From Mesostigma viride (lineage: Eukaryota > Streptophyta > Mesostigmatophyceae > Mesostigmatales > Mesostigmataceae), in the NCBI GenBank assembly GCA_009746045.1, contig RPFO01000310.1, positions 2,901,945 to 2,965,944 on the forward strand: a stretch of DNA of 64,000 nucleotides, in the 5' to 3' direction. A model generated the notes under the pieces. It saw only the letters and a program-made list of their open reading frames with translations. It did not search any database and was not told the DNA's origin. Shown here piece after piece: positions 57,005 through 64,000 of the stretch. Both the position numbers and the translations under genes were made by a program. How positions within the stretch are numbered: position 1 is the first letter of the stretch; every line of letters starts with the position of its first letter.

Positions 57005-57148
57005 TCCTTGCCATCAAGGTCATCAAGGTCATCAAGGTCATCAAGGTCATACAGTGGCGGTTGCGTTGATGTGGCACAAATGGCTTCCTTCAGCGTCATC
57101 AGAGGCACTGCACTTCCTCGCCCTCGCAGGCACTGCACCTCCTCCCCC
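57005..57148 (-). repeat. Tandem repeats echoing the last cytidylyltransferase exon
   Basis: On the minus strand GAGGAGGTGCAGTGCCTG recurs with small changes at about 57150, 57125, 57105 and 57000-57020, the first being the end of the last exon. Four ATCAAGGTC units (9 bp) lie at 57017-57048. The copies differ in whether CCTG is followed by TGAGGG or CGAGGG. Confidence 0.65.
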
Positions 57149-60100
57149 TCACAGGCACTGCACCTCCTCCTTGTCGTCGTCATCATCTGGGTCAAAGAAC
57201 ATATTGGAGTCAGACAGCCGGTCGTCATCATCGATCGACAGGTCGTCACTGTTAGGGCTGCGCGGTGCACTGCTGGAGCCCGCACCGCTGCCGCGACCGT
57301 TCTGACGCAGGAGCGAGCGGCCGGTCTGCACGCATCCTTGGCCAAAGCGCTTTACGGCCGTCTCCTGTGGTGGGGATGACGACATATGCCAACAAGGGAG
57401 TGAACAAATGTCGAGAGAGGCATGTACACGTCAACAAATGGGTGCCAGGGGCGGAGGCAAGAGCAGCCAAGTGCGACCAATTCTGGTCAACAGTAAAACT
57501 AGATGCAGGCAGACACTATTGTGGTCAGCAGTAAGCTAGACACAGACAGAAGCCAATGTGGTCAACAGCAGACTAGATGCAGGCAGACACCAATGTGGTC
57601 AACAGCAAACTGGACGCACACAGAAACCAATGTGGTAAGCTAATAAGCTAGACGCAGAAAGACACCAATGTGGTCAACAGCAAACTAGATGGAGACAGAC
57701 ACCAAAGTGGTCAACAGCAAACTAGATGTAGACAGACACCAATGTTGTAAAAAAAAAAATAGATGCAGGAAGACACCATTGTGGTCAGCAGCAAAGTAGA
57801 CGTGGGCAGACACCATTGTGGTCAGCAGCAAAGTAGATGCGGGCAGACACAATTGTGGTCAGCAGCAAAGTAGATGGAGGCAGACACCAATGTGGTCAGC
57901 AGCAAAGTAGATGCGGGCAGACACAATTGTGGTCAGCAGCAAAGTAGATGGAGGCAGACACCAGGAACCGGCTGCAAGAAATAGCATTAAGTAACGCCTC
58001 ACGTGTTCCAGCTGTCGCACTGTAACCCCTTGAACACGATTCGTCGGGCCACGATGTGGACGCCCAAAACGACGACAGTTTTGAAAGGAGCCCCCCTTTT
58101 TAAAACCTAGAAGAGAGTTGATTTCCGTAATTGTCGGAGCACAATTAATGAGCGCCTCCAGTGAGCGTCTAAGGAAGGCAGAAAATGGGATTCAACAGTC
58201 AAGCGTGCCAACACATGCCAGGACAGGAGGAAACCAGATCGATGGCATGCCACAACAGGCACTAGATGGGTCAACGGAATGAGACACCTGGCGAGGAGAC
58301 CGCACAAGAACGGGCCAGGGGAGGGGAGGGGAGGGGAGGGCAGGGGAGGGAAGGCCCTGGCATGCACCAGCTACCCAGCCCGCCTGCCCGCCTGCCCGCC
58401 CGCCCGCCCGCCCGCCCGCCCGCCCGCCCGCTCGCCCGCATGCTCGCCCCCCCCCCCCCCCCCCCCCCCAGCCACGCAGCCAGCCAGCTAGCCAGCCAGC
58501 CAGCCAGCCAGCCAGCCAGCCAGCCAGCCAGCCAGCCAGCCAGCCAGCCAGCCAGCCAGCCAGCCAGCCAGCCAGCCAGCCAGCCAGCCAGCCAGCCAGC
58601 CAGCCAGCCAGCCAGCCAGCCAGCCAGCCAGCCAGCCAGCCAGCCAGCCAGCCAGCCAGCCAGCCAGCCAGCCAGCCAGCCAGCCAGCCAGCCAGCCAGC
58701 CAGCCAGCCAGCCAGCCAGCCAGCCAGCCTGCCTGCCTGCCAGCCACCCTGCAAGTGCGGAAGGTCCCTTACCACTCACGCAAACGCAGCTGTGCGTGTA
58801 CCACGGCAAGCCACGGGCCCCTCCTACTCCTTTCCCCCCGCTGTGTACTGTTTCCATGCTACGCTCTCTTCCCTTGCTCTCCCAGAGAGCGTAGCTGCCC
58901 TACCACTGCGCCATGCTCCCTCACCATGTACTTGATGTCGCCCGAGAACTTGTCCAGGAACCCCTTGAGCAGTTTGTCTGTGTTGTGCGTCCACAGTGCG
59001 TGCAGGTCCTTGCCCTGCGTCACGCGGTGGACCACGTTCTCCACCTGGCGCCAGGAAGAAACAGTGGCACCAGAGAAAAAGGTAGCAACATAATATGTAG
59101 CAATAACGGAGAGCAAAACCACGAGACAAGTTAGCACGCCCCCCAACTGAGAAACTATACGGGGAGAGAAAAACAAACAAACAAACAAACAAACAAACAA
59201 ACAAACAAACAAACAAACAAACAAACAAACAAACAAACAAACAAACAAACAAACAAACAAACAAACAAACAAACAAACAAACAAACAAACAAACAAACAA
59301 ACAAACAAACAAACAAACAAACAAACAAACAAACAAACAAACAAACAAACAAACAAACAAACAAACAAACAAACAAACAAACAAACAAACAAACAAACAA
59401 ACAAACAAACAAACAAACAAACAAACAAACAAACAAACAAACAAACAAACAAACAAACAAACAAACAAACAAACAAACAAACAAACAAACAAACAAACAA
59501 ACAAACAAACAAACAAACAAAAAACAAACAAACAAACAAACAAACAAACAAACAAACAAACAAACAAACAAACAAACAAACAAACAAACAAACAAACAAA
59601 CAAACAAACAAACAAACAAACAAACAAACAAACAAACAAACAAACAAACAAACAAACAAACAAACAAACAAACAAACAAACAAACAAACAAACAAACAAA
59701 CAAACAAACAAACAAACAAACAAACAAACAAACAAACAAACAAACAAACAAACAAACAAACAAACAAACAAACAAACAAACAAACAAACAAACAAACAAA
59801 CAAACAAACAAACAAACAAACAAACAAACAAACAAACAAACAAACAAACAAACAAACAAACAAACAAACAAACAAACAAACAAACAAACAAACAAACAAA
59901 CAAACAAACAAACAAACAAACAAACAAACAAACAAACAAACAAACAAACAAACAAACAAACAAACAAACAAACAAACAAACAAACAAACAAACAAACAAA
60001 CAAACAAACAAACAAACAAACAAAACAAACAAACAAACAAACAAACAAACAAACAAACAAACAAACAAACAAACAAACAAACAAACAAACAAACAAACAA

Positions 60101-63100: not shown

Positions 63101-63363
63101 GCTTTGTATACTACAGCTTTCGCTCTTGTAGTATGCATTGACCGGCAGCGGTGAGCGTGCACTCAGTGCAGGCAAGGCGAGGACAAGGCAAGGGCACAGT
63201 GATGTAGGGAGCGCAAGATAAGCTGAGGGAGAGCAAAGCAAGGGCAAGAGATGGTAGTGAGACGTACGGCAGTGCGTCGTGCGCCACGTAGTCGATGCGG
63301 TGCGTCTTCATGAACTCCTCCGTGATCACCCACGGCGCGTCCATCACAATCTCGTCAATCCAG
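57149..63363 (-). CDS. PCYT1/CCT: CTP:phosphocholine cytidylyltransferase, 3' part
   Basis: Six minus-strand exons fit: 63363-63268, 62678-62630, 62002-61847, 61251-61114, 59044-58925 and 57364-57149. They use GT-AG borders, agree in phase and total 775 nt. The 5' part, with the HxGH nucleotide-binding motif, lies beyond the right edge. Exon 1 here reads [24 protein letters not shown] and exon 3 holds the family signature [20 protein letters not shown]. An amphipathic lysine-rich segment follows ([44 protein letters not shown]), as in the lipid-sensing helix of the enzyme. The last exon has [10 protein letters not shown] and an acidic run (DPDDDDDK), like the phosphorylated C-terminal tail. 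The enzyme makes CDP-choline, the rate-setting step of phosphatidylcholine synthesis, switching on when the helix binds membranes. The final stop is uncertain: a GTGAGG donor-like site overlaps it, and reading past 58925 instead would end at 58859. Confidence 0.88.
57480..57965 (+). repeat. Minisatellite of about 36-45 bp, roughly 12 degenerate units
   Basis: Units follow AGATGCAGGCAGACACCAAT then GTGGTCAGCAGCAAAGT. Later units are more uniform than early ones. It lies in the last intron of the cytidylyltransferase gene. Confidence 0.92.
58318..58728 (+). repeat. GGGGA, GCCC, poly-C and GCCA arrays
   Basis: Successive short arrays: GGGGA (58318-58350), GCCC (about 58379-58438), a C run of more than 20 bases (58446-58469), then GCCA for about 250 bp (58480-58728). 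LAGW, ASQP and similar frames are artefacts. Confidence 0.95.
59168..60811 (+). repeat. AAAC tetranucleotide array, about 1.64 kb
   Basis: Around 410 AAAC units run almost without change. I see only three breaks, near 59520, 60022 and 60119, each a small gain of A. On the minus strand it reads CLFV in every frame. It lies in the intron between cytidylyltransferase exons 61251-61114 and 59044-58925. Confidence 0.98.
60885..60955 (-). repeat. Echo of exon 61251-61114 3' end
   Basis: On the minus strand ATGGACCATGAGGAGGAAGT then GGGCGTCAAGGTACTCACTG with ACAACGTGGGTGG repeats the true exon end and donor at 61102-61170 with about 85 percent identity. Confidence 0.8.
61320..61495 (-). repeat. Three echoes of the 61251 acceptor and exon start
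   Basis: Minus-strand GCAGGAGAAGCAGCTGACGC (61340-61360), GCAGGGAATGCAGTCGAAGC (61432-61455) and a shorter CTGCAGGGCACCAAGCT (61468-61485) repeat the true GCAGGAAAAGCAGCTGAAAC start. The codons that follow (LGIQLSS, LGSKLAS) mimic the true LGTKLSS. Confidence 0.8.
61584..61790 (-). repeat. Three echoes of exon 62002-61847 3' end
   Basis: Minus-strand GTTAGCTACCTCAAGGTACG is the true exon end. GTGAGCTACCTCAAGG at about 61587-61602, GTCAGCTACCTCACCTCG near 61623-61640 and ATGAGCTATCTCAAATG near 61769-61785 repeat it. The closest copy continues into the intron (GACTGTGGGCTTGAG against GGCTGTGGGCTACC). Confidence 0.7.
62122..62270 (-). repeat. Echoes of the 62002 acceptor and exon start
   Basis: The true junction, on the minus strand CCCCCCAACAGGTCAAGCAG with GTGGGCC (61987-62014), is repeated perfectly over 28 bases at 62122-62149 and again in weaker form (CCTGCAGGTTAACAAGGTGG) at 62248-62270. 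Confidence 0.88.
62285..62455 (+). repeat. GGGT and GCGT/GTGT microsatellites
   Basis: GGGTGGGTGG and GCGTGCGTGTGT arrays in the intron between cytidylyltransferase exons 62678-62630 and 62002-61847. His/Thr and Cys/Val frames are artefacts. Confidence 0.9.
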
Positions 63364-64000
63364 CTGTGTGTGTGTGTGTGTATGTGTGTGTGTGTGTGTG
63401 TGTGGAACAGGGGTGAGGAGGGAGGTACGACTACTCAGTCAGCAAGCCATCACCCACGGCACGAAAACAAGAGGGGGGGAGGGGGGGGGCAGATATAGTA
63501 TTCAGTACGCAGGCCATCATCATGGTGCGTCCATCACGATCTAATGAATCCAGCTGGGGGAGGGGGCGTGGAACAGGGTGTGGGCGGGGGGGGATTGCCA
63601 GTGAGAAAGCAAGCGATCGCGCACGGAGTGCCCATCAGTATGCTCGTCAAGCCAACTGAGGTGGGAGGCGGGAGTCCCCTGGTGCGGGGTAGTGAGGAAT
63701 GAAACAGACATAGAATGAGCGATGAGGAGGGTATCTCATCCACCCCCACGGGATAGCAGGTGGGCAACGGCTGTGCGGTGTTGACTATTCAATAACTGAT
63801 CGCAAAACGGGAAGCACCTATAAGGCATCTCATCCATCGAGCTCAAGAGGGGGAAAGCATGCCAGGTTCAGGGTAGTGGGTAAGTTTCATGGGGCGCGGG
63901 GTATGAGATGTCGGGGGTATGGAATACGCCGGACGATGGCTGCGGCATTTGTTAAAGAATGCCAAAAAATTGCTTCATTCCACCTGCGATAGAACAGGGC
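63364..64000 (-). other. Cytidylyltransferase intron with echoes of the next exon
   Basis: A TG array at 63365-63403 directly precedes the acceptor. Upstream, minus-strand CCAGCTGGATTCATTAGATC with GTGATGGACGCACC (63524-63556) repeats the true CAGCTGGATTGACGAGATTG with TGATGGACGCGCC, about 28 of 33 bases. CAGTTGGCTTGACGAGCATA (63638-63658) is a second, weaker copy. No further exon is recognised to the window edge. Confidence 0.6.

Follow-up and report, generated by a model that had tools for sequence, protein, structure and literature searches.

Direct copies of splice junctions in the adjoining introns of Mesostigma viride genes

In a 64,000-nucleotide stretch of the genome of the green alga Mesostigma viride (contig RPFO01000310.1; hereafter the window), introns of a choline-phosphate cytidylyltransferase gene carry extra, partly decayed copies of their own splice junctions. 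When junctions of this gene and of five others were aligned to the introns beside them, 18 of 60 had a direct copy scoring above all 200 dinucleotide shuffles, and each of the six genes had at least one such junction. The copies are real and, in this sample, frequent. An earlier note on this DNA, which drew attention to them, knew of no named mechanism; a name exists, 'mirages', given to structures of this kind in amphioxus. New here are the green-algal host lineage and the high frequency. The best explanation, to which we assign a probability of about 80%, is tandem duplication of DNA across splice junctions, filtered by selection.

Results

Junction copies in the cytidylyltransferase gene

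Introns of the cytidylyltransferase gene, masked with Tandem Repeats Finder, were aligned to the exons that flank them, with 300 dinucleotide shuffles for comparison. Five of the eleven exon-intron comparisons gave p<0.01, namely the acceptor of exon 1 and both the acceptor and the donor of exons 3 and 4; at the exon 4 acceptor, one of the 300 shuffles scored above the real intron. Copies had been claimed at almost every junction, which is too broad as stated and holds for these five, where real introns exceed shuffled ones, a comparison named beforehand as a possible refutation. The other six comparisons were not significant: the exon 1 donor, both edges of exon 2 (62630..62678, minus strand, as for all features of this gene), both edges of exon 5 (58925..59044) and the acceptor of exon 6 (57149..57364), which includes the stop codon. 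A copy proposed for exon 2 at 62735-62746 falls among them, with p 0.10 and 0.17 for the best score in that intron.

On the acceptor side, exon 1 (63268..63363) is preceded at 190 bp by a copy that keeps the AG, is identical at 30 of 36 positions and beats all shuffles (copy a, 63521..63556), and at 292 bp by copy b (63615..63658, 34/44); the two correspond to stretches at 63524-63556 and 63638-63658 that the note had singled out. Another copy is represented by a fragment at 63449..63463 (14/15 identical), and copy a can also be aligned to the 60 bp that come next (p 0.002). For exon 3 (61847..62002), copy a (62114..62155), comprising 18 intron and 24 exon bases, matches at 37 of 42 positions, lies 135 bp upstream and beats all shuffles, while copy b (62242..62266), 261 bp upstream, matches the exon edge at 20/25 and copy a at 56/79; here too, the assignments of 62122-62149 and 62248-62270 are borne out by alignment. 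Upstream of exon 4 (61114..61251), three copies had been described within 61320-61495. Two of these stand, copy a at 61323..61363 (35/41 identical, 104 bp upstream, above all shuffles) and copy b at 61421..61457 (30/37, 198 bp); the third is weak, a possible fragment at 61467..61478 whose 12 identical bases out of 12 are short enough for chance.

On the donor side, the tail of exon 3 recurs with its donor at 61587..61602 (15/16 identical, above all shuffles, GT changed to GC), and the tail is found again at 61627..61649 (19/23). These short copies are what remains of an echo placed at 61584-61790, for which nothing was found above about 61650; the intron sequence surrounding them has no similarity in three attempts (p 0.75, 0.17 and 0.08). 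The strongest copy in the gene belongs to the exon 4 donor. It lies 217 bp downstream at 60835..60957, containing the 60885-60955 seen before, and reproduces the exon tail, the donor with its GT and about 60 intron bases with 100 of 123 positions identical. Its intron part alone stands at z 7.1 over shuffles, and its frame is open over at least 20 codons. An exon 4 query against the 440-Mb genome returned only two matches, the exon itself and its echo, in a search limited to scoring the top candidates and ignoring very common words.

Similarity among the intron parts of the acceptor copies varies. It reaches p 0.028 for exon 3 and p 0.25 for exon 4 (p 0.002 for the whole unit); for exon 1, copy b against copy a gives p 0.34, and copy a against the further fragment p 0.002. 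Divergence among the copies of this gene is 6-23% (77-94% identity). Self-BLAST of the masked gene yielded no inverted pairs and, besides a 37-bp minisatellite in intron 5, five direct pairs, all at exon edges. The note had further proposed that the introns are built from echoes of their own exons. This may hold for intron 3 only, where the spans from each junction to its farthest copy total 487 of 595 bases, with aligned copy bases amounting to only about 129; elsewhere in the gene such spans cover 264 of 627 and 279 of 2069 bases, and intron 4 is mostly (TTTG)n.

The product of the minus-strand exons is the C-terminal part of choline-phosphate cytidylyltransferase (best PDB match 4mvd, E 1.7e-37) and matches Pfam CTP_transf_like; among the best 120 of 199 hits listed, named relatives from land plants and green algae stand at the top. 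Exon 1 of the model rests on the 4mvd match and an open frame, with further 5' exons outside the window, and exons 3 and 4 have open frames. All introns of the model have GT-AG borders, and the exon frames are intact. No N-terminal exons were found in the stretches examined beyond the window, the first 5 kb of which are N. The genome searched comprises 439.9 Mb in 2243 contigs, the window lying on the one we label C1107; the published M. viride NIES-296 assembly is described as 441.8 Mb in 2363 scaffolds with a mean intron of 1142 bp (PMC6947507).

Other repeats were also seen in this gene. A nearly pure (TTTG)n microsatellite of 1.6 kb (59171-60813) occupies most of intron 4, and intron 5 holds (CCAG)n at 58468-58746 and the 37-bp minisatellite at 57476-57963. 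At 56986-57170, a tandem repeat (25-bp unit, 2.9 copies) carries the terminal part of the last coding exon, around GAGGTGCAGTGCCTGTGA, beyond the stop codon, with a further copy near 57000; this is the same type of duplication, at the border between coding sequence and 3' untranslated region.

Frequency of junction copies in six genes

For the survey, a query of 60 exon and 12 intron bases around each junction was aligned to the adjacent intron, and a match was a score above all 200 dinucleotide shuffles. Besides the cytidylyltransferase gene, it covered a MOR1/XMAP215-like gene (loci L034 and L015), a CDK-like kinase gene (L036 and L021), a phosphodiesterase gene within the window (Pfam PF01663), a SEX4-like gene (L008) and a dynein heavy chain gene on another contig, found through PF03028. 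MOR1, CDK and SEX4 are presumed identities, recognized by eye from the peptides. The cytidylyltransferase gene was the original finding and the SEX4-like gene was included after an echo had been seen in it; the MOR1-like gene drew attention through a spurious match at L015, its true echoes being seen only afterwards, the CDK-like gene was chosen by a visible coding exon, the phosphodiesterase gene by its position in the window, and the dynein gene by two neighbouring profile matches. In the phosphodiesterase gene, the acceptor assigned to the last exon is uncertain. The cytidylyltransferase exon 1 acceptor, which has no upstream exon in the model, was excluded from the count; separately, it beats all shuffles.

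The 18 matching junctions divide into 15 of 52 in the first five genes and 3 of 8 in the dynein gene, where a fourth tied with one shuffle. In the four genes that had not been picked for an echo, the proportion was 11 of 40 (MOR1-like 4/16, CDK-like 1/6, phosphodiesterase 3/10, dynein 3/8). The note's proposal to run the same test across all genes has in this way been carried to five more, a sample of six genes rather than the whole genome. Ten of the echoed junctions are donors and eight are acceptors, and for 14 of them the top-scoring alignment runs across the junction. Measured in register, 16 of the 18 copies are no more than about 300 bp from their source. In the phosphodiesterase gene, for example, a copy of the acceptor of exon 49524-49640 is found 88 bp upstream at 49424..49445 (plus strand; score 34, above all shuffles).

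The controls were nearly empty. In inverted orientation, only 1 of 60 junctions matched (1/52 in five genes, 0/8 in dynein), and windows from exon interiors gave no copy in 109 trials (0/103 and, for dynein, 0/6); in the five genes, the difference between edges and interiors has a Fisher p of 1.6e-8. Non-adjacent introns of the same gene produced no match in 202 comparisons (five genes, dynein left out), and for the 15 matching junctions of the five genes, none of 18-23 introns from other genes scored as high. More generally, local repeats within 1 kb were direct in 64 cases and inverted in 27 across 29 ten-kb regions, a count in which six regions come from the window and one overlaps it, two overlap each other by 4 kb and pairs from the same array are counted repeatedly.

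An ab initio set of 63 exons over about 290 kb was dropped, its members being by eye mostly transposon reading frames. Its echo count (at 34 bits or more, 9 direct and 5 inverted of 63, with 0.8 expected) is not used, several of the matches being internal protein repeats at 16.4-19.2 kb. The only inverted case among the 60 junctions is a strong one, a copy, in SEX4-like intron 4, of the acceptor edge belonging to the exon that follows (reverse-complement score 65). In the MOR1-like gene, one exon, at L034 position 4443, is followed by GC rather than GT (CTGCAG/gcaagt), so that GC-AG introns probably occur.

Young arrays and decoy splice sites

In two introns the copies form arrays. The end of MOR1-like exon 6, TGCTGGAGCGACCAGAAGAAGCAG, is repeated together with its donor gtgggt through the intron at intervals of 77 or 74 bp, giving eight matches with the true edge included. 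Each of the first five intronic units is identical to the exon-edge unit at 74 of 77 positions with the donor unchanged, and two more units have diverged further. Five decoys in this gene accordingly have the CAG/gtgggt of the true donor. In CDK-like intron 2, nine instances of the exon tail and donor, again counting the true one, follow one another at a spacing of 34-35 bp. Set beside the 77-94% identical copies of the cytidylyltransferase gene, such young arrays point to a process that has left products of different ages.

The ladder of decoy sites described in the note, some with intact AG or GT, is confirmed: GT or AG is retained in 20 of 22 decoys examined at eight junctions in four genes. 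If the 22 were used, an in-frame stop is predicted in 19 cases and a frameshift in two. The remaining decoy, site 61449 in copy b of the cytidylyltransferase exon 4 acceptor, is the only one predicted to add an open in-frame stretch, of 66 codons. The SEX4-like donor decoy, read by eye in the correct phase, leads to an immediate stop.

Other features of the window and genome

Several features unconnected with the junctions were noticed. At 16397-19171 of the window, a 924-aa open frame without a Pfam match has three diverged repeats and SPPPP-rich linkers and resembles an extracellular matrix protein. Two frames at 22229-23698 also lack a Pfam match; the second has a YIDD motif and is, we presume, probably a decayed retroelement. 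Positions 37098-38102 encode a Transglycosylase SLT domain protein in two stretches, perhaps unusual for an alga. Elsewhere, contigs C602, C900, C996 and C879 hold several copies of rbcL free of stops and others broken by internal stops, which perhaps represent plastid contigs together with plastid DNA in the nucleus.

Discussion

The junction copies are in direct orientation, lie in the intron adjacent to their own exon, span the junction in most cases, in places form arrays, and cover a range of ages. Alignments and shuffles together support the note's suggestion of repeated tandem duplication of junction-spanning segments. Under this explanation, local tandem duplication would be frequent in the genome, mostly with units of about 30-300 bp. 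With one breakpoint in an intron and the second in the adjoining exon, the duplicated unit would carry a splice junction; the surplus copy would end up in the intron, and the gene would go on working if the spliceosome keeps to the junction on the full exon. Duplications within exons would be removed by selection, and surplus junctions could then grow into minisatellite arrays or decay. We infer replication slippage or unequal exchange as the mechanism at the DNA level, along with correct splicing and the selective filter.

Tandem duplication across junctions has to be weighed against a mechanism specific to exon edges, in which junctions would be hot spots of duplication, for example through R-loop breakage, RNA-templated repair or reverse splicing. 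When only short-period repeats were masked, intron-internal windows matched their own intron in 51 of 240 cases (16 inverted) and edges in 15 of 52 (p 0.27); that count used 100 shuffles rather than 200, and some of its windows lie inside large arrays, junction arrays among them. The similar rates speak against hot spots, and yet the conclusion that edges are not special was not borne out once arrays of all periods were masked: with 200 shuffles and all six genes, 16 of 60 edges (1 inverted) matched as compared with 14 of 220 intron-internal windows (15 inverted; Fisher p 4e-5). Edges are enriched for single copies, and arrays are found throughout introns. That all five local direct pairs outside the minisatellite of the cytidylyltransferase gene involve exon edges also favours an edge-specific process. 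Against it, edge copies stay detectable to about twice the age, because the exon side does not decay. The lack of copies in exon interiors is as expected if selection removes duplications within coding sequence. RNA-templated repair is further disfavoured by the intron sequence included in the copies, which is not expected from spliced mRNA. Exon edges may play a special part; a mechanism confined to them appears to us unlikely.

The other alternatives fare worse. Pyrimidine tracts, splice consensus and microsatellites could by shared composition make introns look like exon edges, and the six non-significant cytidylyltransferase comparisons, the claimed exon 2 copy among them, show that some apparent echoes are of that quality; for the strong copies, chance is refuted by the shuffle, inverted, non-adjacent and other-gene controls, and as a general account it is very improbable. 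Remnants of whole-exon duplication, that is, alternative exons or what is left of them, were named in advance as a possible refutation, and the open frame of the exon 4 donor copy would suit them. The copies, however, are of partial exons that end within the exon and mostly abut one edge, interior windows yield none, and just one decoy in 22 would add an open in-frame stretch, so that we give this origin very little weight. The nearly identical units of the youngest arrays could have been miscounted, and stuttered or misjoined long reads might in principle give false tandem copies; divergence of 6-23% in the cytidylyltransferase gene is beyond what stuttering can create, and copies recur on two contigs, leaving assembly error a very small chance. 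Introners are known from green algae. They are dispersed, mobile elements that carry splice sites and enlarge intron content, and arrays of splice-competent units bear a superficial resemblance to them. The copies here are instead local, every unit matching its own adjoining exon, and dispersed related copies at unrelated loci, the hallmark of introners, did not appear in a limited genome search with one unit, that of exon 4. An introner-like origin is scarcely credible.

Several points nevertheless weigh against tandem duplication across junctions as a full account. The acceptor units of the cytidylyltransferase gene are only weakly alike in their intron parts, and in 4 of the 18 matches the best masked alignment falls short of the junction. 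Two of the 18 copies are too distant for a simple small tandem unit, the phosphodiesterase donor copy (48534..48552, plus strand; exon 47609-47837, intron 1; score 28, above all shuffles) at 704 bp and the SEX4-like intron 4 acceptor copy at about 1860 bp. With arrays masked, intron-internal windows match 14 times directly and 15 times inverted in 220, so that these counts do not establish general duplication away from arrays and edges. Single borderline matches are not secure, because reruns of the 52-junction test under different shuffles and window sizes returned 14, 16 and 14 matches, and 16 of 60 were obtained with arrays masked. The sample consists of 60 junctions of one genome in one assembly, most exon models are based on open frames, codon bias and splice motifs rather than transcripts, and it is assumed that the spliceosome ignores the decoys.

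The closest known system is that of the amphioxus mirages. Mirages are reported to occur in the globin genes, with Adh3 cited, where either boundary is affected, units measure 10-160 bp, splicing is regular, and length and somatic instability are seen (PMC3087553), and also in troponin C and PGBD5, those of PGBD5 being imperfect (PMC3902484). The M. viride copies share several traits with them: units span the exon-intron boundary, as do 14 of the 18 best alignments and the array units of exon tail plus donor; 5' or 3' boundaries are duplicated, here ten donors and eight acceptors; many copies retain AG or GT (20 of 22 decoys); and the normal exon is left intact. Minisatellite-like organization with units of 10-160 bp is matched by the two arrays (nine matches at 34-35 bp, eight at 74-77 bp), and the imperfection of PGBD5 mirages by most copies here. 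The fit is weaker for most of the remaining cases, which have one, two or three decayed copies no farther than about 300 bp away, and the copies at 704 and about 1860 bp fit less well still. The host also differs, a green alga rather than a lancelet, and the 18 of 60 junctions are spread over six genes, two of which had been selected for an echo; their copies range from near-identical arrays to faint single ones. Undisturbed splicing and length polymorphism are reported for amphioxus; the observations here cover intact exon frames in one assembly. Among the matches listed in open-licence PMC literature, as far as their text was available, we found no report of mirages outside lancelets, and the accessible part of a study of C. 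elegans minisatellites near alternative exons contains nothing on duplicated junctions (PMC4039745).

Intron gain by tandem duplication is an old model, with reported examples that include a duplicated intron-exon stretch in potato RdRp (PMC4974935) and cases in Drosophila (PMC2891723). In that model (Rogers), as here, the duplicated DNA contains splice signals; there a new intron results, whereas here the copies are absorbed into an existing one. A minisatellite of a human interferon-induced gene reportedly provides multiple splice donor sites (Turri et al. 1995); its units share with ours the presence of donors, the difference being that it is a single locus.

Intron length differences between species are commonly credited to transposons. 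In this alga, a simple duplication process accounts for a share of intron sequence large enough to measure, and comparison with the conserved exon gives its age. A wider proposal, that junction-spanning tandem duplication is a main route of intron growth genome-wide, touching about a quarter or more of splice junctions with the junctions as hot spots, we advance tentatively and at somewhat under even odds. If it were true, the spliceosome would often face runs of identical donors or acceptors within an intron and choose among them solely by position; the genome would then serve as a natural experiment on how splice sites are chosen and as a nursery for new introns and exons. Rows of identical donors, such as the five CAG/gtgggt decoys of the MOR1-like gene, offer a direct test of position against sequence in the choice made by the spliceosome, and also bear on how far nonsense-mediated decay clears decoy noise. 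Proposals of intron gain by tandem duplication start from units of just this kind, and mirages in a green alga would show that the phenomenon is not confined to lancelets.

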